Below, piece by piece: positions 16,414 to 61,806 of a DNA stretch of 64,000 nt. The stretch is taken from the NCBI GenBank assembly GCA_017461505.1, contig JAFTXV010000007.1:1-64000 (forward strand). The letters run 5' to 3'. The notes under the pieces are model-generated. The model made no database searches. It had not been told where the DNA came from and worked only from the letters and a program-made list of their open reading frames with translations. The stretch comes from Paludibacteraceae bacterium. Lineage in GTDB: Bacteria; Bacteroidota; Bacteroidia; Bacteroidales; Paludibacteraceae. A program made the translations under genes and the position numbers. How positions within the stretch are numbered: position 1 is the first letter of the stretch; each line of letters begins with the position of its first letter.

Positions 16414-17459
16414 TTGATTGGAGTAAACTGACATTTCACTATACCGAAACGGAGTATATTGTTCGTGCGGCATGCAGAAATGGCGTATGGGAGAAACCCT
16501 ATGCCACACGCGACAAGATGATTCCTATCCATGCCGCAGCCACAGGTCTGCACTATGGACAAGAGTGTTTCGAAGGACTCAAAGCCTTTCGCGGTGTGGA
16601 CGGCAAGGTGCGTATCTTCCGCATGGAAGAGAATGCCAAACGTATGTACCATTCTGCCGAAGGACTACTGATGACACCTGTACCCGTAGAACTATTCTGT
16701 GAAGCGGTATTGCTAGCATTGGAGATGAATATTGATTTCCTTCCTCCATACGAGACAGGCGCCACCCTCTATTTCCGCCCATTATTGGTAGCTACCACGC
16801 CCGATATTAGTGTAGGGCCTGGCAAAGATTGCGAGTTTGTGGTCATACCTACGCCTATTGGTCCGTATTTTCCAAACGGCTTCAAGGGCATGCCCGCTAT
16901 AGTGAATCGTACTGTGGATCGCGCTGCGCCACAAGGCACTGGTTGTTGGAAAGTTGGAGGCAATTATGCGGCATCCTTCCGCGCTAGCGAAGCTGCTCAC
17001 GCCATAGGATATGAGTGTATGTTCACCGATGCCAAAACGCATAAGTATATCGATGAATGCACTGCATCCAATTTCATTGGCATAAAAGAGGTTAAAGGCG
17101 AAAGGTTAAAGGCGAAAGGTTGGGAGTATATTACGCCACGATCAAGCGCCATCTTGCCAAGTATTACCAACGACTCGCTAATGACATTGGCAAAAGAGAT
17201 GGGTATGAAGGTGACGCGCCGCAAGATTCGTGTCGAGGAACTGGCAGATATGCAGGAGGCAGCAGCATGCGGTACAGCGTGCGTAATTTCACCTTTGACT
17301 AAAGTCGTTGATCCTGATAATAATGTCACCTATTCATTCGGAGACAAACCAGGTCCTGTATTGACGAAACTGTACCACGCGCTGCAAGACATCCAATATG
17401 GGCGTGTGAAAGATACACACGGTTGGTGTACAGAAGTTACAATAGAACATAACAAATAA
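16410..17459 (+). CDS. ilvE: Branched-chain amino acid aminotransferase
   Basis: 349 aa; PLP-dependent transaminase for leucine, isoleucine and valine. The Schiff-base lysine is Lys181 in GCWKVGGNYAAS. Further landmarks are GQECFEGLKAFRG at about 50-62, YIDECTASNFIGIK and the late CGTACVISPL. Relatives pass directly from the IKD/IKE turn to YITPRS. Here about 12 residues (EVKGERLKAKGW, about 227-238) intervene, encoded by a GGTTAAAGGCGAAA repeat at 17088-17122. The active site is untouched, so the enzyme should work. Confidence 0.95.
   Translation: MIDWSKLTFHYTETEYIVRAACRNGVWEKPYATRDKMIPIHAAATGLHYGQECFEGLKAFRGVDGKVRIFRMEENAKRMYHSAEGLLMTPVPVELFCEAVLLALEMNIDFLPPYETGATLYFRPLLVATTPDISVGPGKDCEFVVIPTPIGPYFPNGFKGMPAIVNRTVDRAAPQGTGCWKVGGNYAASFRASEAAHAIGYECMFTDAKTHKYIDECTASNFIGIKEVKGERLKAKGWEYITPRSSAILPSITNDSLMTLAKEMGMKVTRRKIRVEELADMQEAAACGTACVISPLTKVVDPDNNVTYSFGDKPGPVLTKLYHALQDIQYGRVKDTHGWCTEVTIEHNK
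17088..17122. repeat. In-frame GGTTAAAGGCGAAA repeat in ilvE
   Basis: Two and a half copies of the 14-bp unit GGTTAAAGGCGAAA. Near-identical words lie outside genes at 12855-12876 (reverse), 26092-26108, 41570-41580 and 60833-60860. Confidence 0.75.
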
Positions 17460-38837: not shown

Positions 38838-40583
38838 TTGGCTCCAGCACGTGATTTGGAGGTAGGAATAGCTGCCATTCAAGCGGGTGCGGATGCTGTA
38901 TATATAGGTGCGCCTGAGTTCGGCGCACGCCAAGCAGCAGGCAACTCGCTCAATGATATTGCTGAGTTGGTAAAATATGCTCATCGCTTTGGGGTACAGG
39001 TACTGGTAACACTCAACACGCTGCTCCACGACGACGAATACCCTCGTGCGTGCGCGCTCGCGCACGAATTATATAAGGTAGGGGTAGATGCGCTGATTAT
39101 CCAAGACCTCAATTTGCTCCAGTACGACCTCCCGCCTATTCGCCTTCATGCTTCTACGCAGTGCGACAATCGCACGGCAGAACAAGTGCTTCACTTGCAG
39201 CAGATGGGTTTCCGTCGTGTGGTTCTTGCCCGTGAATTATCCCTCAAGGAAATAAAAGACATCAGTAACGCGCTTTTCATTCAGAATTCAAATTTCAATA
39301 TTGAATTAGAAGCTTTCGTTCACGGTGCCTTGTGCGTGAGCTATAGTGGACGCTGCTATCTCTCGGAAGTACTGATGGATCGTAGTGCCAACCGTGGTTG
39401 CTGTGCACAACTCTGCCGCCAGCGTTATGACCTGCTAGACAAGGATGGCAAAGAGATGGTGGACATGTATGGTGAACCTATCCACCAACGTTATTTGCTC
39501 TCGCTCCAAGATATGGATCGTAGTCAGTACCTTGCCGAACTTATCGAAGCAGGAGTAACCACCTTCAAGATTGAAGGACGACTAAAGGACCGCGACTACG
39601 TCACCAATATCGTGGCATACTACCGCCAACTGCTAGACCAACTGATTGCAAGCAATCCCACATTGCAGCAAGCATCTACTCCGTCTGTCTATCAATATGA
39701 CTTTACCCCTAATCCTGCTAAGACTTTCCATCGCGGACAAACCGACTACTTCTTGCACGGTCGCACACCTAATATGGCAAACTGGCAAACACCCAAATCC
39801 ACGGGTGAGAAGATTGGTAAGGTCATTGCCACCAGACACAATGCCATCTGCGTGGAGCTCGCTCATGGTATCACGCTTCACAACGGTGACGGCATCTGCT
39901 ATGGAGATAAGGGCTTTGCTATCAACCGCATTGAAGGCGACTGGATTTATCCAAATAACCAATATCCAACACCAAATAGCCCACAGAGCATCCAATATCC
40001 TAAAGTTGGTACAACGCTATATAGAAATCTTGACAACGAGTTTCTACGTTCGCTCAAGGCGGAGCGCCGTATGCCTGTGGATATCCGTTTCGAGGCAGTA
40101 GAAGAGGGCTATCGTCTAACGATTGGCAAGCAGACTGCCACTTTTGAGGCAGAGCACCAACTGGCTAACAATCCAGAGCGTGCGTTGCAAACCATCATTC
40201 AGCAACTCAGCAAATTAGGAGATACGGATTTTATTGCCAAGGATATCCAAGTCTTTGACGGCGAAGAAGCATGCTCCGATGCCTTCCCATATTTCATCCC
40301 TACTAGCCTACTCAACCAATGGCGCAGAGAGGTATCCAATAGCGAAAGTGCTCTACAGCGAAATGATCTACAGCGAAGCGATCTACAGGCGAAGCCAATC
40401 TACAGCGAAGCGTCCCATCATCCCCTTATGACGTGTAAGTATTGCATACTATATGAGTTAGGTCATTGTCGTAAGATTAATCCAATGACTAATGAACCTC
40501 GCTATCTTCGTTTGCAGAATGGCACGATGCTCTCTTTGGAGTTCGACTGCAAACACTGCGAAATGCGAATCACTAAGCACTAA
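38838..40583 (+). CDS. U32 family peptidase / prephenate-dependent tRNA hydroxylation-like protein
   Basis: 581 aa from a TTG. APARDLEVGIAAIQAGADAV with YIGAPEFGARQAAG opens the U32 barrel; CYLSEVLMDRSANRGCCAQL and C-terminal CKYCILYELGHC, CKHC suggest a metal or Fe-S site. The family includes TrhP and RlhA, which act on RNA. The family normally starts with a strand like IELLAPA. Upstream codons here (ISLLAPA) fit, so translation may begin at ATT 38811 or ATA 38829. Three low-complexity inserts are encoded by DNA word repeats: near residues 148-155, 371-390 and 498-527, the last by the hairpin repeat family. Confidence 0.85.
   Translation: MAPARDLEVGIAAIQAGADAVYIGAPEFGARQAAGNSLNDIAELVKYAHRFGVQVLVTLNTLLHDDEYPRACALAHELYKVGVDALIIQDLNLLQYDLPPIRLHASTQCDNRTAEQVLHLQQMGFRRVVLARELSLKEIKDISNALFIQNSNFNIELEAFVHGALCVSYSGRCYLSEVLMDRSANRGCCAQLCRQRYDLLDKDGKEMVDMYGEPIHQRYLLSLQDMDRSQYLAELIEAGVTTFKIEGRLKDRDYVTNIVAYYRQLLDQLIASNPTLQQASTPSVYQYDFTPNPAKTFHRGQTDYFLHGRTPNMANWQTPKSTGEKIGKVIATRHNAICVELAHGITLHNGDGICYGDKGFAINRIEGDWIYPNNQYPTPNSPQSIQYPKVGTTLYRNLDNEFLRSLKAERRMPVDIRFEAVEEGYRLTIGKQTATFEAEHQLANNPERALQTIIQQLSKLGDTDFIAKDIQVFDGEEACSDAFPYFIPTSLLNQWRREVSNSESALQRNDLQRSDLQAKPIYSEASHHPLMTCKYCILYELGHCRKINPMTNEPRYLRLQNGTMLSLEFDCKHCEMRITKH
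39945..40002. repeat. In-frame CCAATATCC word repeat in the U32 gene
   Basis: The words CCAAATAACC, CCAATATCC, CCAAATAGCCC and CCAATATCC encode NNQYPTPNSPQSIQYP. CCAATA words also flank the hairpin repeats at 19803-19858 and 40334. Confidence 0.6.
40334..40412. repeat. Hairpin mini-repeats in frame in the U32 gene
   Basis: CCAATAGCG, then four CTACAG units around GC-GAA-(A)TG, GC-GAA-GC, GGC-GAA-GCC and GC-GAA-GC. It is the same family as the array at 44776-45045, on the opposite strand. It encodes LQRNDLQRSDLQAKPIYSEA and keeps the frame. Confidence 0.8.
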
Positions 40584-43661: not shown

Positions 43662-44768
43662 CTATACTATTTGTATCTCTCCGTTGATTACTTCCCACAC
43701 CTTGGCTTTGTCGCCGTGTGCTGCGAGCAGTGCGGTCAGGTGTTGGCGGTCGGTGTCGGTGATGAATATCTGTCCGAACTCTTGTCCCACCACTAATTGT
43801 ATTATTCGCTCCACTCGTTCGCTATCCAGTTTGTCGAATATGTCGTCGAGTAGAAGGATGGGCTGTTGGTTGAGCACTTGTTGGTCGCTGAGGTATAGCG
43901 CTTGCCCCAGTTTCATGGCTAGTAGGAAAGTCTTTTGTTGTCCTTGGCTACCTACACGTTTGAGGGGATATTCACCTAGCCTCATCTCTAGTTCGTCCTT
44001 GTGTATGCCCTGCGATGTCCAACCTAGTATAAGGTCACGTGTGCGTGTACGCGTCAGTGCTTGCTCCAAGTCACGCTCATGCAACTGCGACACATACTCC
44101 AACGCTACTTGCTCTTTGTCCCCTGAGATAGCACTATACACCTGTTGGAAGTATGGCACAAACTGCTCTATAAACTGCACTCGCTCTTGGTATATCGGCA
44201 TTGCATGCATCACCAGCTGCTGCTCTAGTACCTCAAACAGAGTGGTTGGCAATGCCTCCACAGGGGTATCTGCATATTGTTTGAGTAGCGCATTGCGTTG
44301 CTTGAGCAGTACGTTGTATTGGGTTAGGTGTTCTAGATACGCTTTGCTGTATTGTGAGATGACGCCATCCATAAACTTGCGTCGCTCATCGCTACCGTCC
44401 ACTACTAGTTCGCTATCTTGTGGCGATACCATCACCAGAGGTATCAAGCCGATATGGTCTAGTAGTCGTTTATAATCTTTCTTGCCTCGGCGGAACTGCT
44501 TTTTGACGCCTCGTTTGATGCCGCAGCTGATCACTTCCTCTCCCTCGTACTTACCTTGTATCATAGCCATATCCTCATCGTGGTGGATATTCTGGCTATC
44601 AATAGCGTTGTAGGCAGACTTGGTGAAACTGAGGTAGTATATGGCGTCCAAGATATTCGTTTTGCCTTGCCCGTTTAGCCCGACGAAGCAGTTGAGCTTA
44701 TCCGAGAAGTTCAAGCCTGCCTCACGAATATTCTTGTAGTTTAATATGTGTAGTTCCTGTAGTATCAT
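43662..44768 (-). CDS. recF: DNA replication and repair protein RecF
   Basis: 368 aa. ABC-type ATPase that loads RecA at gaps. Walker A GLNGQGKTN lies near residue 30, the signature VGSQGQQKTFLLAMKLGQ near 275 and Walker B PILLLDDIFDKLD near 305. The N-terminal LHILNYKNIREAGLNF is typical. The hairpin array begins 8 bp upstream of its ATG, so it must lie in the leader or promoter. The usual DUF721 partner is not seen. Confidence 0.95.
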   Translation of the reverse strand: MILQELHILNYKNIREAGLNFSDKLNCFVGLNGQGKTNILDAIYYLSFTKSAYNAIDSQNIHHDEDMAMIQGKYEGEEVISCGIKRGVKKQFRRGKKDYKRLLDHIGLIPLVMVSPQDSELVVDGSDERRKFMDGVISQYSKAYLEHLTQYNVLLKQRNALLKQYADTPVEALPTTLFEVLEQQLVMHAMPIYQERVQFIEQFVPYFQQVYSAISGDKEQVALEYVSQLHERDLEQALTRTRTRDLILGWTSQGIHKDELEMRLGEYPLKRVGSQGQQKTFLLAMKLGQALYLSDQQVLNQQPILLLDDIFDKLDSERVERIIQLVVGQEFGQIFITDTDRQHLTALLAAHGDKAKVWEVINGEIQIV

Positions 44769-44775
44769 CTATTTA

Positions 44776-45045
44776 GATCGCTTCGCTGTAGATCACTTTG
44801 CTGTAGATCGCTTCGCTGTAGATCGCTTCGCTGTAGATCGCTTTGCTGTAGATCACTTTGCTGTAGATCGCTTCGCTGTAGATCGCTTTGCTGTAGATCG
44901 CTTTGCTGTAGATCACTTTGCTGTAGATCACTTCGTTGTAGATCGCTTCGCTGTAGATCGCTTCGCTGTAGATCACTTTGCTGTAGATCGCTTCGCTGTA
45001 GATCACTTTGCTGTAGATCGCTTCGCTGTAGATCGCTTTGCTGTA
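44776..45045. repeat. 18-unit array of a 15-bp hairpin repeat
   Basis: Eighteen head-to-tail copies of GATC(G/A)CTT(C/T)G(C/T)TGTA, exactly 15 bp each. On the minus strand a unit reads TACAGCGAAGCGATC with the mini-hairpin GC-GAA-GC. Variants GC-AAA-GC, GC-AAA-GT and AC-GAA-GT all keep pairing (one by G-T). The array lies between recF and the response regulator and is stop-free in two frames, giving false ORFs. Confidence 0.92.
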
Positions 45046-45130
45046 GACTACAGGGCGTAAGCCCGTCCTACAGGCACGAAGTGCCGACCTACAGGCGCTA
45101 GCGCCGATCTACAGCCCGCAGGGCGATCTA
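45046..45130. repeat. Four larger hairpin units at the end of the array
   Basis: CTACAG words alternate with GGGC-GTAA-GCCC (45053-45064), GGCAC-GAA-GTGCC (45073-45085), GGCGC-TA-GCGCC (45094-45105) and GCCC-GCA-GGGC (45114-45124). The tract touches the stop codon of the response regulator. Confidence 0.9.
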
Positions 45131-46297
45131 TTAAGCGAAGAGGTTCACATCGCTAGCGGTGATAGTGTCGCCGCCAAGGATGATGAGTCGCTCTATCACG
45201 TTACGCAGTTCGCGGATATTACCTGGCCAAGTTTTCTCTTGCAATGCGGTCACTGCAGCATGGTCAAAGGTCTTCACTTTCCATCCCTGCTCGTTGCATA
45301 TGAGTTCGGCAAAATGGTTCACCAGCAACGGTATATCCTCTTTGCGCTCATCTAGCGATGGCACATGAATAGGTATCACGTTCAGGCGGTGGAAGAGGTC
45401 CTCGCGGAAGCGTCCTTCGGCGATCTCCTTCTTGAGGTCCTTGTTGGTGGCAGCGAGTACGCGCACATTCACTTTGATGGGTTTGTCGCTACCCACGCGT
45501 GTGATCTCGTTCTCTTGCAATGCACGCAGCACTTTCGCTTGTGCAGAGAGACTCATGTCGCCTATCTCATCGAGGAAGAGTGTACCGCCATCGGCTTGCT
45601 CAAACTTACCTGCACGGTCTTTGATAGCACTCGTGAAACTACCCTTGGTGTGTCCAAAGAGTTCGCTCTCAATGAGTTCGCTAGGTATAGCTGCGCAGTT
45701 GACCTCTACCATAGGTTTCTTGGCGCGTGCACTGTTCTCGTGGATGAGGTGAGCGACGACCTCTTTACCTGTACCGTTGCTACCAGTGATCATCACTCGC
45801 GCTTCGGTAGGTGCTACCTTTTCTATTATCTCGCGCACGCGCTCGATGGCAGCACTCTCGCCCACCATCTTATTGCGGGCACCTATCTTCTTGCGCAGCA
45901 CCTTAGTCTCTTGTACAAGTGACTTATGCTCGAGTGCGCGTTGGGTGGTTACTAGCAGACGGTTGAGGTCAAGGGGCTTCACAATAAAGTCGTATGCACC
46001 ATTCTTAAGTGCCTCTACCGCAGTTTCTACGGTGCCGTGCCCAGATATCATCACCACAGGTACATCTTCTGCACCTTGTTCTTGGGTGGTCTTGCGGTAG
46101 GCCTGTAGCACCTCCATGCCGTCCATCTCTGGCATCTTGATATCGGTGTATATCAGGTCATACTTAGCAGAGAGTGCCATATCAAGACCTACACGTCCGT
46201 TCTCGGCTACCTCTACGGTATAGCCTTCAAACTCGAGTATCTCTTTGAGCGTATTGCGTATTGCGCGCTCATCATCTATTACCAATATTCTTGCCAT
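45131..46297 (-). CDS. NtrC-type sigma-54 response regulator lacking the HTH domain
   Basis: 388 aa from MARILVIDDERAIRNTLKE at 46297; the promoter lies just upstream, excluding the longer frame. Receiver domain 1-120 with phospho-acceptor Asp52 (YTDIKMPEMDG). AAA+ domain about 145-380 with Walker A GSNGTGKE and Walker B GGTLFLDEIGDM. The sigma-54 contact loop reads GSFTSA where the canonical form is GAFTGA. The protein stops right after the AAA+ lid (TASDVNLFA), with no Fis-type helix-turn-helix. The stop abuts the hairpin repeats. It may act from solution or through another protein. No sensor kinase is adjacent. Confidence 0.9.
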   Translation of the reverse strand: MARILVIDDERAIRNTLKEILEFEGYTVEVAENGRVGLDMALSAKYDLIYTDIKMPEMDGMEVLQAYRKTTQEQGAEDVPVVMISGHGTVETAVEALKNGAYDFIVKPLDLNRLLVTTQRALEHKSLVQETKVLRKKIGARNKMVGESAAIERVREIIEKVAPTEARVMITGSNGTGKEVVAHLIHENSARAKKPMVEVNCAAIPSELIESELFGHTKGSFTSAIKDRAGKFEQADGGTLFLDEIGDMSLSAQAKVLRALQENEITRVGSDKPIKVNVRVLAATNKDLKKEIAEGRFREDLFHRLNVIPIHVPSLDERKEDIPLLVNHFAELICNEQGWKVKTFDHAAVTALQEKTWPGNIRELRNVIERLIILGGDTITASDVNLFA

Positions 46298-46326
46298 GAT
46301 AGTTGGGGTATGTATAATATTCCGCG

Positions 46327-46357
46327 CAAAGTTACTGCTTTTTTCTGATATCTCCAA
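46327..46357 (-). promoter_or_regulatory. Promoter of the response regulator
   Basis: Minus strand TAACTTTG (46334-46327), 20 bp, TTG (46357-46355). AAGCAG precedes the -7 element, as in the trmO, tRNA-Phe and amylase promoters. Confidence 0.75.
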
Positions 46358-46393
46358 ATTTTTGATGAAATATACCATTTTTTGAAGTATGTC

Positions 46394-46502
46394 GGTTAAT
46401 GGCGGTGAAGATCGGTTAATGACGGTTAATGACGGTTAATGGCGGTGAAGATCGGTTAATGACGGTTAATGGCGGTGAAGATCGGTTAATGAGGGTGAAT
46501 GG
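46394..46502. repeat. 10-bp tandem repeat
   Basis: About eleven 10-bp units drawn from three words: GGTTAATGGC, GGTTAATGAC and GGTGAAGATC. The units stay strictly in 10-bp register, close to one DNA helical turn. They lie 35 bp upstream of the response-regulator -33 box. Confidence 0.85.
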
Positions 46503-46513
46503 ACGGAGATATA

Positions 46514-46547: not shown

Positions 46548-46602
46548 TCTACAGCCACTTTGTGGCGATCTACCATTTAGCCCAATCTACAGCGCAGCGA
46601 TC
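46548..46602. repeat. Hairpin mini-repeats
   Basis: ATCTACAG units around GCCAC-TTT-GTGGC (46554-46566) and GC-GCA-GC, with GATCTAC between. Same family as the 44776 array. Confidence 0.75.
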
Positions 46603-46971: not shown

Positions 46972-49900
46972 TTACAACCTCTTTCCTTGTGCATCGAAGA
47001 CGCCCTCGGCGGTGCGGATGATGAGCTGGCCATCAATGAGGTACTTATTAACCGCTTCACCGTTATTCACCCCTTCACCGATATTCTCGAGTGATGTCAC
47101 TACATCCTTTTGTGGTTGGATATGGAGCGCAAAGCGATTTTCGGATGTGCCCTTTGGCAGGGTGACGATATAATCGCTCAATAGCAAGTTGGTACGAGTA
47201 TTGGTCTCGTAGTCAACGAGTTCTACCACCATGCCCTCTGTGCCGTCAGGCATACGGAAAGTATATTCTCCCTCGGCTGCAATCTGTACACCCACTGGCA
47301 CAAGTGCTTCTTCCATAGGCAGTGCGTTACCTGCCGCTTGGATACGATCGTTGGTGAGGGTGTAGATATTCGCACCGCTATTGATGATCTTCGTAAGGTC
47401 GAGGTTCATATCAAAGTCAGTGGTTGCACCTTCTTGCTGCAGTTGTACGAATGTCTGGTCAGCTTTCTCCTCGCCTTGAACCAATTCTAATCCAAGCACC
47501 ACCTTCTCTGGCAACTCACTCTCGCTATTGCGACGGGCTGCAAGTTGCTCAGGGATGCTAGAGTGCGCACTCCAACTGATAGTGCCCGCATATTGTACCA
47601 TATAACCATACATCGACTTGAAATCAGTAGGAGCAGCAGCACTCTTCACTTCATAACCAGCGTTGCTGAATAGAAACTCATAGTAGAAGTTCGCCTCAAC
47701 TTGATTAAATGTTGTGTTTACATCCGTCACTGTAATATCCTTAAAAGCAGGCACACCTATTAGGTTCCAGTTAGAGTCTGTTATCTTATGATTAATTGTA
47801 CCATAAGGTATATTGCACTGGTGCGCTGGCACCAACACATCTACCGATAAATTTTGTGAGATTGTGTTAACTGATTGACCAGATGGGAAATACAAACTTA
47901 CACTACTTACACCGTGGTTAAAAGTCACCTTATTCAGGTCTAGTACAAGTACGTAACCTACGCCAGCTTTTAGTGTTGTATTGACATCCGTAATATACTT
48001 CCAATAAGTGCCTGAATCTATAAATAATCCTTTTTCAGCGCGCTCTGCTCCATCGTAGTATTGCAAGATCCATGCATCTGCATACTCACCAAAACCAAAT
48101 ATATCGCTCACTTTCACATCAAATGGGAAGGATACCCAATAAATGCTCTGATCACGAGTTCGAGGCGTTTTCTCTATCCACTCTTTATCAAATGTCATTA
48201 CAGCATACACGGTATCTACCTTTGTCAAATTGCTCGTTAAATTCAATTGCGTTACAGCAACCGTTCCTTTACCATTCTCATAACCATGCTCACGAATCAC
48301 CATCATATTCGCGCCTAAGGCTCCTTCTGCTTGGGTATTTCCTGGCAACCATGCTACGATAAGGTGGTTGGTCTTGAAATCATAAGTAAGGCGGATATCA
48401 AACTCCATGTCTGCTGCATCACTTGCCAGCAAATTAATTTTGTCGTTGTCATCTACTCCTCCCTTGAAATATTGCAGATTGTCAGCGTACAATGCTGTCA
48501 AATTCACTTTGGTACTCTTAGTGGCGATTACATCTACTTGATAAATCCAGTTTTGTAAATCTTCAAATTTGATTCCAGTTACTACATTCTTACTAGAATT
48601 TTTTAATTCCTCAGCATCAGCCAATCGTAAGAATGTTTCCGCAGTTGCGTTAGTAGATCCCGCAATATATGCACGACGTATCTCATTGGTCTCCCAATCC
48701 CAACCAAAGCGCACGTTTGCACCATCCGTAGGTAAGTCACCGTCTGCATCTATCACAATTCGAGGATTGGCATCTTCGGGGTCGGCAGCCAAGGTATCGG
48801 AAATACAATCACCATAGTCATTGGCAATGGTATATCTCACATTCTTCGTTTTATTTGCAGCTTCTGCATCTGTTGCTACCCACTTACAGAAGTAGTGGCT
48901 AAATGGCTCATTATTATCTGCATAACTGCTATAGGTCATTTTATGACTATCACTGCGGAAATATGTCCAACCGTCCTTTGCCGATTTGGTACGGATATAG
49001 TAGTCTCCCTCATATGGTTTTATATCATCTGTGAGCACCTGAACACTATGTGTTGGATTATTGGTCTGTTGCAGTACAAAATTCCATACGCCAGTCTTTC
49101 CCACTGTAAATGCAATATCATCCGTTATCGTCTGCCACGTGCCCACGCCATCTACAAGTGTAGCACATCGTTGCAAAACTAGTCTTGGGGACTTGTCGCG
49201 ATGCACAAAGAAACTTACGGTATCTAATCTATCGCCTATTATGCACTTTTTAATCACGCGCTCGGGGTGGAAAGAACCGTCTTCCGAGTCTTGATATGCT
49301 AAACGATAATCGCCCACACTGAGAGGATAGGTGATTGTCAACTTCTGTAGCCCCGCGTCCCACGCGAATATATATTTTCCGTAATATGTAGTAGCAATAT
49401 TACAATGGTCACCACTACCGTTTGCAGAGGTCAGAGTCTGATCTCTTTCTGTAATGCTAAACGATTTGTTTCCATAGCGGGTAAGGATACTTGTACCCTG
49501 CATATGCGCTATTTTGAAATTCGCAGTTACATTGGAGTCTAATTCTACTTCTAATTGACCATCTACAAATCTGAATCGTTCTTGTGGTGTCTCCCAATCA
49601 CCATCTACACCGATAACATACCACTCTTCCTTTATAGCAAACGTTACGTTGATAGTTGTATTGTTACAAATGGTATTTTGTGTACCTACGCTTAAAGATG
49701 CTCCGTTGATTGTAGCCGTCTGAAGTTTGTATCCATTCTTTGGCGTAACTGTCACAATGACTTTTGTATCAAATGGAACTTTCTCACCATTAGTAATGAT
49801 TCTTCCAGTTGTAGTCTTTACAACCACGTCACCAAAATCAGGAGTAGTGTTTGTGATGATGATTGTAGGCAATTCTAACTTCGTCCACTTGCCAGAATAG

Positions 49901-52900
49901 TAGATATCCATTCCGTCATCATTCCCACCTGTCTCATTTTTACCCCATCTTTCTTCTTCAAGAGTGTAATAATTAGACCCATTATATAAATCTATCGTTT
50001 TCGATTCATTTAAATTGATATCCCAGTTATTATCGGAATTATCCTTTGGCATTCTAACAAAATTCACCTTATTATATAAATGAGCTGTTGGTACATCGCA
50101 GTAATATACTCCGTCTTCATCTGTGTTTAACATACTCATCCACTCATTATTGCTATCATTGAAGAAATATGCTGCAAAACGTGCCTCACGAAGCTTCCAG
50201 TTGGCATTTGGCTTGAGATAAATCTTCGTCAAATCATACAAGTTATTTCCATTAGTTGGCAACGTAAGGTCAGTTGTTCGATTCCACACATTATTTTGTG
50301 TATTTGTACTATTTGGTTTCATTCGCACAAACTGAAGTTGGCTATATCCTACAGGAACATCTGCTGTATAGTATTCATCATCGCAGGTTAGTTGTTCCAA
50401 ATCCACCCACCCATTATCTTGCTCACTTTTCCAATAGTATATCGCGAAACGTGCCTCAGCACTCTTCCATTGGGCATTTGGCTTGAGGAATACAGTCGTT
50501 GGTTTGAGGAATACTGCTTCAATCGTTGCATCGGCATCAATAGTACAAGTGTAGGTTAGGTCAGTAGAAACAACCACACCATTCTTCTTCCATTGTGAGA
50601 ATGCATTATTCGCGTCTGGAGTTGCAGTAAATGTCACGCTCGTTCCTGGCTTCACTTTTGCTGGAGAGGTCAGCACTCTGTCATCCGCAACAGCCCCTAC
50701 TGTACCACCATCACCAAAGAAAGTTAATGAAACCTTGTCTGAAGGATATTCAACGGATAAGGTATTCGTTTCAGAATTCCACGTAAATATATACTCACCA
50801 GCTTCTGTGGTGGTTATTTTACATTCTGCATTGTTCGCGCCATCTTTGTGTAAAGTTACAGAAGTTTTAGTCTCTGTTAGGAATTCACTCTCAAGACTAT
50901 TTCCTCTCCAGTCACCATTGTCTATGACTTTAAATTTATACTCCTTTTCTCCTGCCAAAGTAACAACTAGAGAATATGTCGTACTGCTTTCTGTCGCTTT
51001 CTTAAATTCTTGGTTCTCGTTCGCACTCCAATTATTAAACACTTCACCTACCAAATACACATCTGTAGGAAGTCCTTCGGTTGCGGTACCATTACTTATC
51101 CATTTTGCATAGAGAGTAGTAACGCTGCTATTTTTAATCCAATTTCCACTAGCATCGGTATAACCCGTTACACTCTTTAACCATTCTCCTGCTGCAGATA
51201 CCACTTGTACGCCTGCGCCCTCCTCTTGGGTGTAATAACCGCCAAAGGTGTAATCGGTGCGAGTAGGAGCGACGACTGGATTGACAGAGTAATTATTGTT
51301 TTGGTATTGTACCGTTGCACTGCTTGTTCCATTCGTACCATTTTGTTTTTCAAAATTGATGGTATATGTTGGGGTTTGACTTTGCCATTTTGCATAGAGG
51401 TTCACCGTTGCATTATTTGTAGTAGTGAGATTAGTAACCTCCGCTTCATCTCCATATTCCACCTCACCATCTGACGTAGTTGACCATCCTAAGAAAGCAT
51501 GTCCTTCGCGCGTGAAATTGTTGGTACTCAATGCTTTTTTCTCGTTATAATTAAATGGCTGATCATCCATTGTACCTGCTGTACCACCATTGGCATTGAA
51601 TTTTACGGAATAGGTATTGAGTGCAAAGTTAGCTTGTACAGTGGAAACTGCTGTTGGCTTAAATCTGGTAGAAGCAGCATTTGCATTTGTAAACGAACCG
51701 CTACCAGATTGGATTGTCCAGTTTGTAAAGTGGTAGCCCGTTTTGGGTGTTGCAGTAATAGCGCCACCAGTTACTTCGCTCATTTCGGTTTCTGTTGTAG
51801 GAGTAACTGTACCTTTGTTTATATCACTGGACGTGACAGTAACGATATAAGTTTTTTCTGTAAACTCTGCTTTCACAGTTACATCCTCATTCACAATGCA
51901 GGTGTAAGATGGATCAGTCGATAATGTGGTACTACTACCATTAGTCCACTTAGAGAAAGTGTAACCAGTATTTGCTTCTTGAGTAAATACAACACTTTTT
52001 CCTTTTAATACATAGTCGCCAGAAGTAATTGCAACTCCATCCACTTTGGCTGTAACAGTCTTACCACCCGTCCCCTTACTAAAGGTTACTTTACATAACT
52101 CTGTTGCAGTGTACCAGAGTTTATTCGTCGAAGGTTCCCACCAAATAACCACATCGGAGGATTTGTCAGAGGTATCTGTAAATTTTATTAAGCGATTCTC
52201 TACTATTTGGTCCCAATTACTTTTTTGGCATCCTAGTTCAATCGCGTTACTTTCTCCTATATGTGCTTCAAAGTTATGACCTGAACCATCTTCGTTTTTT
52301 GTAGTCCAGAACGGATATGTGCTAGTACCTGCTTTACCTTTACCCGTGTGGATAAAAAAGAATTGGTCTCTACCTCCATAAGACTCAGTTATCTGTGCAG
52401 ACAATTCCGCTACAGTCTTGCCTGTCTCAAGCTTATATCGCCCGTTACCCGCATAGGTGAAAGGATTGGTTGTAGACGCTCCATCGTTCCATTTTTGTTG
52501 GAATCGTCCGCCGATGTAATAAGGTTTAGCAGTAACAGTAACGGTACAAGTGGCGGTTTTATCAGCCTCGCAAGCATTAGAAACTGTGTAAGTGATAGTC
52601 GCCGTACCTGGACCTTTAGGTGTTACTGTTCCATTGTCAACAGTAGCCACATTTAGGTCGGAGGATGTCCATCTACCACCTGTAGTACCACTGGTTATAG
52701 TAATAGATCCATTTGAGCCACCTTCTTCTAAAGTGAGGGTAGATTTAGAAAGTACAGGTTGTACCAATGCGGGTGTAATGGTTATCTGCAATGTCTTTGC
52801 GCTGGAGGTAGCACCATAACAAACGCCTGCTTCTGTGATGATAGAGCGCACCCAATATGTAGTTGTGGCAATTGGGGAAACAGTGATTGAGGAATGACCA

Positions 52901-54249
52901 TTTTCTGCAGTAATGATGTTTTCCCCTACAGTACCTGTACCCCATTGTAGCGAACCAACTGAGATAGAGCCTCCTGCCGTCAGCGTCACATTCGTTCCGC
53001 TACATACGTCACCAGCTAATGCATTATCTCCAACTTTCGCTGTCAGTGACGTTGGTGTGGTAGGAGTTTGGGTACAGCCCGCCACCTTAAATGAAGCCGT
53101 TGCATTTGCATTATTGGCTGAAGGTGTAAATGTAGTGGTGGCATTACTTGCATTAGCCAAAGTACCGTTAGTTGCAGTCCATTTATCGAATTCATATCCG
53201 TCATTAGGTGTCGCCGTAATTGTCACTCCGCTACCTTGCGCTACCGTACCCGATGCTGGACTAACTGTACCACCTTCACCTGCCGTCGTAACTGTGTAGG
53301 AGTAGGTTTTAGGATTTATAGTCAGTGTTGCTGTATTACTACTTTTTACGCAGATAAATCCGTCACAGGAAATTGCAGCTATCTGATATTCACCTTCCGT
53401 TAACTCATCAACATCGTTCACATCAAAACCAATCCAACTATTTCCTCCATCAGTTGAGTAATAGTAATATAATGTATTTGCCCTTCCTGCGGATGATGTG
53501 TTGTTTACCGTTGCACTTATGCCAGAAGTTGCAGTTCCGACAGTAATAGCATATGCTGTTGTGCTAAACTCAGGAATCTTGCCACTAGTGACATTTATCT
53601 TATTACCATTGTTATTTGTTAAAGAGTATAGTGCTCCAGCTGCTGCATTGTTAGACATTTGTACGCCTTGCCATGTGCTGTTGTCTGAAATCCAATATTT
53701 TTGTCCGGCAGCCGCCCTAACAACGGTGCAATATGTAGAACTCAACTTCCAGCCAGCGTTGCCGTTTTTATAATCATTGGTATTAGTTTTGTTTAGATAT
53801 TTTGTTCCCCAGCCCCAAGTGTCGCCATAGTAGAACATAATATCATTGCCTGTTAGAATAGAACCCATTTCCTCTACCCAGATTGACGGATACCATTCAT
53901 TACTAGCCTGGTCAACACATATTCGTACTAATCCTGTTGCTCCAGTATATTTCCATTTATTATTATTGTAACCACCAGAAGCACCTTCTGTGTTTGCATT
54001 AATCACAGTATTGTTGTTATTTGGACCATAGTTATTACTTCCATTGTTGAGATAAAAAGTGGAATTAGTCGTCATCCATACATAGATACTATACTTACTA
54101 TCTTGTCCATAGTAGTTTTCTATCTTTGTTGTCTTACCATTGAGATAAAAGTGTGAATCTGATCCCCACGCACTGACGCTTGTAGCGAGTAGGATTAGAA
54201 TTAGGGTTAATGTTTTGAAAAAAGAAGAAAAAGTTTTCATTGTTTTCAT
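46972..54249 (-). CDS. Giant secreted multi-repeat protein with T9SS-type tail
   Basis: 2425 aa. A signal peptide follows (FFKTLTLILILLATSVSAWG). The ATG at 54249 is preferred because the duplicated leader ends there; an ATG nine bases on is possible. Modules: InlB-like divergent repeats (YTVTTAGEGGTVSPASGTVA, ATPNDGYEFDKW), a Big_2-like Ig domain, Listeria-Bacteroides repeats (VKFNANGGTAGTM, AFLGWSTTSDGE) and, near residues 1245-1400, two tandem beta modules (FLKPNAQWKSAEARFAIYYW). The C-terminus VFDAQGKRL resembles a sorting tail. It shares the tandem modules with the gene at 62100. Probably a surface adhesin or binding protein; no enzyme domain is visible. Confidence 0.9.
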   Translation of the reverse strand: MKTMKTFSSFFKTLTLILILLATSVSAWGSDSHFYLNGKTTKIENYYGQDSKYSIYVWMTTNSTFYLNNGSNNYGPNNNNTVINANTEGASGGYNNNKWKYTGATGLVRICVDQASNEWYPSIWVEEMGSILTGNDIMFYYGDTWGWGTKYLNKTNTNDYKNGNAGWKLSSTYCTVVRAAAGQKYWISDNSTWQGVQMSNNAAAGALYSLTNNNGNKINVTSGKIPEFSTTAYAITVGTATSGISATVNNTSSAGRANTLYYYYSTDGGNSWIGFDVNDVDELTEGEYQIAAISCDGFICVKSSNTATLTINPKTYSYTVTTAGEGGTVSPASGTVAQGSGVTITATPNDGYEFDKWTATNGTLANASNATTTFTPSANNANATASFKVAGCTQTPTTPTSLTAKVGDNALAGDVCSGTNVTLTAGGSISVGSLQWGTGTVGENIITAENGHSSITVSPIATTTYWVRSIITEAGVCYGATSSAKTLQITITPALVQPVLSKSTLTLEEGGSNGSITITSGTTGGRWTSSDLNVATVDNGTVTPKGPGTATITYTVSNACEADKTATCTVTVTAKPYYIGGRFQQKWNDGASTTNPFTYAGNGRYKLETGKTVAELSAQITESYGGRDQFFFIHTGKGKAGTSTYPFWTTKNEDGSGHNFEAHIGESNAIELGCQKSNWDQIVENRLIKFTDTSDKSSDVVIWWEPSTNKLWYTATELCKVTFSKGTGGKTVTAKVDGVAITSGDYVLKGKSVVFTQEANTGYTFSKWTNGSSTTLSTDPSYTCIVNEDVTVKAEFTEKTYIVTVTSSDINKGTVTPTTETEMSEVTGGAITATPKTGYHFTNWTIQSGSGSFTNANAASTRFKPTAVSTVQANFALNTYSVKFNANGGTAGTMDDQPFNYNEKKALSTNNFTREGHAFLGWSTTSDGEVEYGDEAEVTNLTTTNNATVNLYAKWQSQTPTYTINFEKQNGTNGTSSATVQYQNNNYSVNPVVAPTRTDYTFGGYYTQEEGAGVQVVSAAGEWLKSVTGYTDASGNWIKNSSVTTLYAKWISNGTATEGLPTDVYLVGEVFNNWSANENQEFKKATESSTTYSLVVTLAGEKEYKFKVIDNGDWRGNSLESEFLTETKTSVTLHKDGANNAECKITTTEAGEYIFTWNSETNTLSVEYPSDKVSLTFFGDGGTVGAVADDRVLTSPAKVKPGTSVTFTATPDANNAFSQWKKNGVVVSTDLTYTCTIDADATIEAVFLKPTTVFLKPNAQWKSAEARFAIYYWKSEQDNGWVDLEQLTCDDEYYTADVPVGYSQLQFVRMKPNSTNTQNNVWNRTTDLTLPTNGNNLYDLTKIYLKPNANWKLREARFAAYFFNDSNNEWMSMLNTDEDGVYYCDVPTAHLYNKVNFVRMPKDNSDNNWDINLNESKTIDLYNGSNYYTLEEERWGKNETGGNDDGMDIYYSGKWTKLELPTIIITNTTPDFGDVVVKTTTGRIITNGEKVPFDTKVIVTVTPKNGYKLQTATINGASLSVGTQNTICNNTTINVTFAIKEEWYVIGVDGDWETPQERFRFVDGQLEVELDSNVTANFKIAHMQGTSILTRYGNKSFSITERDQTLTSANGSGDHCNIATTYYGKYIFAWDAGLQKLTITYPLSVGDYRLAYQDSEDGSFHPERVIKKCIIGDRLDTVSFFVHRDKSPRLVLQRCATLVDGVGTWQTITDDIAFTVGKTGVWNFVLQQTNNPTHSVQVLTDDIKPYEGDYYIRTKSAKDGWTYFRSDSHKMTYSSYADNNEPFSHYFCKWVATDAEAANKTKNVRYTIANDYGDCISDTLAADPEDANPRIVIDADGDLPTDGANVRFGWDWETNEIRRAYIAGSTNATAETFLRLADAEELKNSSKNVVTGIKFEDLQNWIYQVDVIATKSTKVNLTALYADNLQYFKGGVDDNDKINLLASDAADMEFDIRLTYDFKTNHLIVAWLPGNTQAEGALGANMMVIREHGYENGKGTVAVTQLNLTSNLTKVDTVYAVMTFDKEWIEKTPRTRDQSIYWVSFPFDVKVSDIFGFGEYADAWILQYYDGAERAEKGLFIDSGTYWKYITDVNTTLKAGVGYVLVLDLNKVTFNHGVSSVSLYFPSGQSVNTISQNLSVDVLVPAHQCNIPYGTINHKITDSNWNLIGVPAFKDITVTDVNTTFNQVEANFYYEFLFSNAGYEVKSAAAPTDFKSMYGYMVQYAGTISWSAHSSIPEQLAARRNSESELPEKVVLGLELVQGEEKADQTFVQLQQEGATTDFDMNLDLTKIINSGANIYTLTNDRIQAAGNALPMEEALVPVGVQIAAEGEYTFRMPDGTEGMVVELVDYETNTRTNLLLSDYIVTLPKGTSENRFALHIQPQKDVVTSLENIGEGVNNGEAVNKYLIDGQLIIRTAEGVFDAQGKRL

Positions 54250-57371: not shown

Positions 57372-57550
57372 GGTTGTTGTTTTAAGACAATTTACGTCAA
57401 TTTATATCGTCAATTATCGTCAATTCGTTGGGTGCGTTGTTTATCTGTTGGAAGATTGTGGTGTACCACAATAGCAACTGATAAACAATCATTATGTTTG
57501 CTGCTCTATCCCTTATGCATCCCTTGGTCAAAGCCCCTTGATCCTTCGGT

Positions 57551-57594
57551 GAGGTTCCGATGAGATTCCGATGAGGTTCCGATGAGGTTCCAAT
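57551..57594. repeat. 11-bp tandem repeat
   Basis: Four units of GA(G/A)GTTCC(G/A)AT or GAGATTCCGAT in exact register, in a spacer without genes. Confidence 0.8.
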
Positions 57595-57654
57595 GGAAGT
57601 AAGGGGCAGGTAAGGGGCTGCGCCGTTGTTATATTGTATTTTGTTTGCTCATAG

Positions 57655-58694: not shown

Positions 58695-58925
58695 TGTTTC
58701 AAAGATCGCTTGTTGTCGCGGAGCGACGAGGTGTTGGTTAGCCTAGTGTCCAAGACCCGAGTCGGGAGACCGGAGTCCGAAGGACGGAGGGCGAAGGATC
58801 ACTTTTGTCGCAGAGCGACGGGGTGTTGGGTTAGCCGAGTAACCAAAGCCCGAGTCGGGAGACCGGAGTCCGAAGGACGGAGGGCGGATGTCGTACGCAG
58901 AGCGAACGTTCGAGGCTTTGCCGAG
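58695..58925. repeat. Modular hairpin repeat, copy group B
   Basis: Two full modules in tandem (about 58711-58800 and 58801-58884), about 85-90 bp each and nearly identical to 57241-57321. First hairpins are GTCGC-GGA-GCGAC and GTCGC-AGA-GCGAC. An extra CTCGGC-AAA-GCCTCG-type hairpin (minus) follows at about 58909-58925. Confidence 0.85.
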
Positions 58926-61635: not shown

Positions 61636-61690
61636 TTATCCCGAAGATACCCTGAAGATACCCCGAAGATAGCGTAAAGGTAGCGCAAGG
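61636..61690. repeat. CCCGAAGATA word repeat, second site
   Basis: Words TCCCGAAGATA, CCCTGAAGATA, CCCCGAAGATA then GCGTAAAGGTA and GCGCAAGGGTA. It matches 20533-20568. Confidence 0.75.
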
Positions 61691-61770
61691 GTAGCGGAAT
61701 GACATAGTAAAGCAAGAACTTTGCAAAAGTAGAAAAGGATAATTAGGGAAACGGGAATATAGGGAATTTC

Positions 61771-61806
61771 AAAATGCCCAAAATGCCCAAAATGCCCAAA
61801 ATGTCC
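61771..61806. repeat. 9-bp tandem repeat
   Basis: Three exact AAAATGCCC units and one AAAATGTCC. The surrounding 61691-62036 stretch carries ACGACAATT/GTCAATT words (61891-61937) and no credible gene. Confidence 0.85.

Follow-up and report, generated by a model that had tools for sequence, protein, structure and literature searches.

A dispersed family of short hairpin repeats with a fixed spacer and many different stems in a Paludibacteraceae genus

The recF-like gene of this Paludibacteraceae bacterium (43662-44768, minus strand; RecF/RecN/SMC N-terminal domain) and the gene of an NtrC-like response regulator (45131-46378, minus strand; Response_reg and Sigma54_activat domains) were separated by 362 bp of repeats. 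Positions are those of the window, the 64,000-nucleotide stretch of DNA that was analysed. This recF-ntrC array extended from the stop of the ntrC-like gene, which lay upstream, to the start of the recF-like gene downstream (44769-45130). An earlier note on this DNA had described four consecutive perfect hairpins with the unrelated stems GGGC, GGCAC, GGCGC and GCCC, and these were confirmed on the plus strand at 45048-45127. Each unit began with CTACA. Unit 1, as read from the sequence (45048-45067), had the stem GGGC/GCCC, the loop GTAA and the ending GTC. Unit 2 (45068-45088) had GGCAC/GTGCC, GAA and GAC, unit 3 (45089-45108) had GGCGC/GCGCC, TA and GAT, and unit 4 (45109-45127) had GCCC/GGGC, GCA and GAT. 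The spacer had been given as a constant CTACAG. The linker was indeed fixed; however, the final G of this word opens each stem, and the linker was therefore better given as GAY (GTC once) followed by CTACA. The alternative word CTATAGGAC, which the earlier note had also offered, gave 0 matches in the genome within 0-3 nt of CTACAG.

Two features went beyond the earlier note. The adjoining 15-nt tandem array (44774-45047, minus strand) was built of the same CTACA unit on the other strand. It held 18.3 copies of a minimal unit, in which CTACA was followed by a GC/GC stem with the loop GAA and by GAT, and some copies carried the loop AAA or a changed arm. In addition, CTACA arrays were found inside genes. 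A four-unit array lay in frame at 40353-40414 (plus strand), where the ORF encodes a DUF3656 (collagenase) domain. Two more units, both of the form CTACA to GAT, lay at 46549-46601 (plus strand). The first had the stem GCCAC/GTGGC and the loop TTT, the second had the stem GC/GC and the loop GCA, and GATCTACCAT lay between them.

Other repeats were observed in the window. A 10-nt unit (CGGTTAATGA / CGGTGAAGAT) was repeated about 12 times at 46389-46506, immediately upstream of the ntrC-like start, and a repeat at 47045-47086 had similar words. A 93-nt repeat was present twice at 58704-58886. Many hairpins with different stems (GTCGC/GCGAC, GTCC/GGAC and others) were found in it, and it is perhaps another hairpin-mosaic family. 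Short tandem repeats of 9-14 nt, with units unlike those of the CTACA family, lay at 17089-17121, 57550-57595, 61640-61671 and 61770-61803. An ORF of 2425 aa (46972-54249) had the C-terminus YLIDGQLIIRTAEGVFDAQGKRL, which by eye we take to be a Bacteroidales secretion-signal tail.

The frequency of the units was compared with that in shuffled sequence. The window contained 4 occurrences of CTACA followed by a perfect stem of at least 4 bp, a loop of 2-4 nt and GA, and 60 dinucleotide shuffles gave 0.12 on average (maximum 2). Unit 1 is not among the 4 because it ends in GT, and the unit at 46549 is one of them. When stems of at least 2 bp were counted, 19 were found against 2.08 (maximum 7) in dinucleotide shuffles. 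The four-hairpin region folded as a single RNA strand modestly better than its shuffles (z -2.38), and the z-score for DNA was -1.16. The minimum-energy folds did not contain four separate hairpins because the units can cross-pair. Rfam models gave no match to window positions 44500-45400 up to E = 1.

The genome of the window (G000) is a draft that is 82% complete. GAYCTACAG had 94 matches in it versus 8 for a reversed-pattern control, and the pattern GATCTACAGN{3,16}CGATCTA had 46 versus 0 in the control. The latter pattern was present in 6 of the 61 genomes of the genus, namely G000, G014 (a draft, 98% complete), G070, G055, G041 and G074. When GTDB contigs were scanned for two linked units, 39 stretches were found. 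Of these, 29 came from records whose titles named Paludibacteraceae (24), Bacteroidaceae (2) or Bacteroidales (3); the 10 matches outside Bacteroidales may be due to chance. Three near-identical multi-unit arrays (L045, L046 and L047) lay in gaps within about 6 kb of each other (G000:C4:538-545 kb), and those of L046 and L047 were also present in G014 and G070.

Pairing was assessed in units that were defined by the spacer only. With pairing ignored, the window and 90 loci of G000 and its relatives were scanned for CTACA and GAYCT separated by 5-20 nt, and each intervening stretch was taken. Of these 374 units, which are not independent of each other as the 15-nt array and orthologous loci are included, 279 formed complete hairpins (a stem of at least 2 bp up to a loop of 2-6 nt), against about 21 expected after each stretch was shuffled (the sum of per-genome means). 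The earlier note had held that its idea would fall if matches were no commoner than in a shuffled genome or if stems were mostly unpaired, and the counts of 94 against 8 in the reversed control and of 279 in 374 pointed the other way. The stems included GC, GGC, GCCC, GGGC, GGCGC, GCCAC, GGCAC, GTCC, GGAC and others. The stems had been described as freely changing; those of G000 were drawn from a limited set.

Many of the non-hairpin units belonged to a second type, the B units, with the layout GYGA-GY-NNN-RC-GA-RC, in which GA faces GA between the arms. This layout was seen in 47 units, of which 36 had paired outer arms, compared with 23 expected on random re-pairing of arms, and 38 had paired inner arms, compared with 19.4 expected. 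The perfectly paired units are termed A units. We also considered a rule by which neighbouring stems are never alike within an array, and it was set aside. The effect was weak in G000: all stems differed in 21 of 23 arrays (P 0.0095), or 21 of 22 without L055 (P 0.027), and the other genomes gave no significant result (P about 0.2). By adjacent pairs, 10 of 42 were alike with L055 and 2 of 32 without it (3.9 expected, P 0.23).

A sister family with the variant spacer GGTCTAACA (the CTAACA form) was found in 34 of the 61 genus genomes. It was searched for as TCTAACAG occurring twice within 4-20 nt, which gave 4 control matches in all. G024 was the genome richest in this form, with 98 matches. 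We folded the 113 sister units with a plain second spacer among the approximately 150 listed, from 28 genomes, and 99 of them were complete hairpins, against 7.3 expected and a maximum of 17 in 1000 shuffles. In the 42 units with a stem of at least 3 bp, 17 stem sequences were distinguished. The earlier note had proposed a repeat family in which pairing is shared and stem sequence is not; this was borne out genome-wide and, with the spacer variant, genus-wide. The two spacer forms were also found at the same sites. Three genes that carried CTACA units in G000 had CTAACA-like units in their place in relatives: GlgA in G074 and G014, the presumed FtsH gene in G014, and a VapE-like gene in RGIG906. 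The loops of the sister family, read on the CTAACA strand, were GNA in 51 of 74 three-base loops and GNNA in 18 of 18 four-base loops. This G..A rule was weak for some stems of the CTACA form, holding in 6 of 24 GGGC units and 0 of 18 GGCGC units. According to the available part of PMC6582339, the GAA loop in GCGAAGC gives a DNA mini-hairpin of extraordinary stability, in which G and A form a sheared pair.

The units were mapped against genes, as the earlier note had proposed, and this revealed a fixed polarity between co-directional genes as well as in-frame copies inside enzymes. The count used a simple longest-ORF gene call on the window and 41 G000 loci, in which some calls are doubtful; a spurious ORF took in 13 copies of the 15-nt array of the window. 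Between co-directional genes, A units had TGTAG in sense in 30 of 31 cases, and 25 of these 30 copies were nearer the upstream stop. B units in the same setting had CTACA in sense in 17 of 17 cases, and 16 were nearer the downstream start. The minimal 2-bp units in this setting were less strictly oriented (13 CTACA, 6 TGTAG). Convergent or divergent settings gave 10 TGTAG and 1 CTACA for A units, and 3 CTACA and 2 TGTAG for B units. Inside ORFs, 18 A units were CTACA-sense and 15 were opposite (11 in L055, 3 in L061 and 1 at the gene end in L044). The TGTAG orientation brings TAG stops, which may be why in-frame arrays outside L055 and L061 were mostly CTACA-sense.

The polarity relative to transcription and to stop and start codons, together with the covariation in B units, would be expected from control at the level of the transcript. 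Hairpins of type A that follow a stop would shield the upstream message or trim it, those of type B in leaders would act on the downstream gene, and selection on the RNA would keep the pairing. In addition, the mismatch was an A-C pair, which would read as G-U on the TGTAG strand, in 6 of the 12 one-mismatch stems; this is consistent with the explanation, and the stems are too few to show RNA selection. However, units in frame inside enzymes have no obvious role of this kind, the fold z-scores were modest and the presence among relatives was patchy. We consider transcript-level control rather unlikely as the explanation of the family.

The ORFs with in-frame arrays had Pfam matches to radical SAM, EPSP synthase, glycogen synthase, NlpC/P60, RNase H1, glycosyl hydrolase 2, VapE-like and DUF3656 families. 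PdxA and an ABC ATPase, identified by sequence search against solved structures, also carried them, as did a gene that was recognised by eye and that we take to be FtsH (L037). The encoded peptides resembled DLPSTGAADLQRSDLPST. The insert in PdxA added 39 bp in frame and replaced some flank as well. Loci of 29 relatives were fetched, and the insert was absent from all 7 that were aligned, G074 (82.7% nucleotide identity) among them; the two solved PdxA chains shown lacked it as well. The array ends often read AGATCG...CGATCT, which are unit ends, and no target-site duplication was demonstrated among the arrays compared. The variable loop of glycogen synthase held a longer hairpin in G041 (L186) and another short tandem repeat in G051 (L188). 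Since this loop held differing repeats in G000, G041 and G051, the site seems prone to several repeat kinds.

Orthologous sites were compared between species. The recF-ntrC gap of G014 measured 168 bp and was filled by an array, as in G000. Of 29 loci fetched, 18 relatives were laid out, and the site was array-free in 17 of them, G014 being the one with an array. The array-free gaps were -17 to +22 bp in 15 relatives and 63 and 70 bp in two, these sizes being approximate because the ends were derived from BLAST. G070, G055, G041 and G074 had arrays elsewhere and none at this site. The G041 gap of 15 bp, ATATCTACC, is possibly an array remnant. The A halves of G000 and G014 were nearly the same and the B halves differed. 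Unit 1 was identical in G014 and the stem of unit 3 was retained. Unit 2 had one mismatched pair, and unit 4 had a base inserted beside the loop, which left 3 pairs. The earlier note had stated that a stem changes only when both arms change together. This did not hold in G014, where the stems were mostly the same and the differing ones showed one mismatch and one inserted base. At least one clear compensatory change was found among the orthologous arrays aligned, GCCC/GGGC to GTCC/GGAC between L067 and its orthologue in G070, and the unit after it differed on a single arm only.

Arrays were more conserved than their flanks in several pairs, such as L065/L133 (98.6% vs 88-94%) and L138/L112 (100% vs 84-88%). 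However, this was not seen for L045/L114, L035/L131 and window/L117. Greater conservation of arrays was set aside as proof of selection.

Array length between orthologues varied by whole units. A whole unit was missing from G000 in L046 and from G014 in L047, and L045 had a GGC unit where G014 had a GGGC unit. The 15-nt array of G000 was a plain tandem expansion where G014 had a different B part. Such expansion and whole-unit differences are what purely local satellites would produce, which grow from a GATCTACAG seed, wherever one arises, through slippage and template switching and do not move between sites. However, near-identical multi-unit arrays stood at separate sites (L045, L046 and L047), closely similar modules were found in unrelated genes (L031 and L070), and the same spacer occurred at dozens of sites. 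These observations call for copying between places, and a purely local origin is quite improbable.

Candidate movers were searched for. No Y1_Tnp (PF01797) match over the cut-off was found in the six CTACA carriers, including the 98%-complete G014, and G041 had one match below the cut-off. None was found in G024 either. A Y1_Tnp match was present in 11 of the 34 CTAACA carriers versus 11 of the 27 other genomes, and carriage was not associated. RAYT was rejected as the mover, as none was over the cut-off in the CTACA carriers. A viral vehicle was also rejected. The single IMG/VR match, L181, looked by eye like a coding pentapeptide-type repeat rather than a member of the CTACA family.

The units could still be true GTAG-tagged REPs, mobilised by a RAYT (a Y1 HUH transposase) that recognises single-stranded GTAG with a hairpin and that was lost or not assembled. 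On the TGTAG strand, an unpaired GTAG lies one base from the hairpin and a 3-nt ATC on its other side, resembling the GTAG-1/2 layout in the available text of PMC3733652. The tail-to-tail arrangement, the intragenic units and the location after stops also match. However, the sister family reads GTTAG and not GTAG, the stems are of 2-6 bp without a single consensus, and the transposase search in the carriers gave the result above. Membership in the RAYT-mobilised class is unlikely.

We prefer the reading that the units form a family of interspersed palindromic repeats in a Paludibacteraceae genus, acting like REP and Rickettsia palindromic elements (RPEs), with a probability of roughly 0.6. The module would consist of a fixed spacer (GAYCTACA in G000, GGTCTAACA in sister genomes) and a short hairpin with interchangeable arms. 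Such modules would spread as small non-autonomous elements that are copied whole to new sites, and they would be tolerated where transcripts or proteins permit. Tandem runs would then lengthen or shorten by slippage. A mismatched arm might be rewritten from its partner by template switching on a snapped-back strand, with stable GNA loops helping, and/or the arms might stay complementary through loss of unpaired units. The A half of the G014 recF array, nearly the same and with two damaged stems, indicated that re-templating is not universal. One compensatory change and two damaged stems do not discriminate between template switching and loss of unpaired units. More tentatively, the hairpins might template themselves: the GNA or GNNA loop would snap the new strand back and arm would be copied from arm, so that pairing is inherited via replication while the stems drift and the spacer is under concerted change. 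This would explain why CTACA and CTAACA-like units occupied the same GlgA, FtsH and VapE-like sites. With hundreds of units, a fixed spacer, many stems and dozens of related genomes, the family provides a natural replicated test of how pairing is kept without sequence. If template switching rewrites the stems, covariation, the usual sign of functional RNA, would here be a mutational by-product. In addition, conserved enzymes of gut Bacteroidales carry repeat-encoded peptides.

The earlier note had called the family undescribed. Our literature search, whose coverage left out most subscription journals and preprints, found no description of the CTACA/CTAACA family; however, the kind is known from REP elements, which the available text of PMC3733652 describes as short palindromes that are tagged with GTAG, have alternative complementary stems, are also found inside genes and favour stop codons. 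REP-like sequences are reported across bacteria and archaea in the accessible part of PMC12306157. Like the GTAG-tagged REPs and BIMEs in the same portion of PMC3733652 (Di Nocera 2013), the CTACA units have a hairpin with unpaired GTAG on one side and alternative complementary stems, and they occur in clusters, in tail-to-tail pairs, after stop codons and inside genes. The unpaired GTAG at the palindrome end is present in the CTACA form (as TGTAG on the other strand), and the CTAACA form reads GTTAG. REP-like placement, between co-directional or convergent genes and near stops, held for A units, whereas B units were nearer starts and many units were intragenic. GTAG REPs have stems of 5-13 bp in that part of PMC3733652, whereas those of the CTACA/CTAACA units are of 2-6 bp without a single consensus, and the CTACA carriers had no RAYT over the cut-off; for Bacteroidetes, the same text names CGTC and not GTAG repeats. 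RPEs are in-frame palindromes in the available part of PMC10969869. The CTACA arrays resemble them in their in-frame insertion into many unrelated genes (PMC10969869 and PMC3733652, in the parts available). However, RPEs are about 150 bp long there, with RPE-4 and RPE-6 short and CGTC-tagged, and the CTACA arrays are set apart by their unit structure, being runs in which most units measure 15-23 nt, the stems vary and the tag is a different one. The best reading of the CTACA units is a REP/RPE-like palindrome family that is not a GTAG-REP/RAYT member.

Porphyromonas gingivalis, the host of the BrickBuilt MITE, belongs to the same order as the genome of the window. BrickBuilt also forms dispersed arrays of short tandem units; however, in the available text of PMC4596501 it has a fixed 23-nt unit without spacers and a leader and tail with small inverted-repeat ends, and it is always intergenic. 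Template switching has been inferred to create and repair hairpins, very stable loops being thought to help, and the authors consider its role in hairpin maintenance less clear (PMC8794818, available part). The likeness to our family lies in a mutation mechanism that is able to rewrite one arm from the other, whereas in that part of PMC8794818 the mechanism was inferred for RNA genes and not for a dispersed repeat family. The CTACA/CTAACA family is set apart from the described REPs and RPEs by the lack of a RAYT over the cut-off, a sister spacer without GTAG, the length and freedom of its stems, its head-to-tail runs and the polarity of its two unit types.
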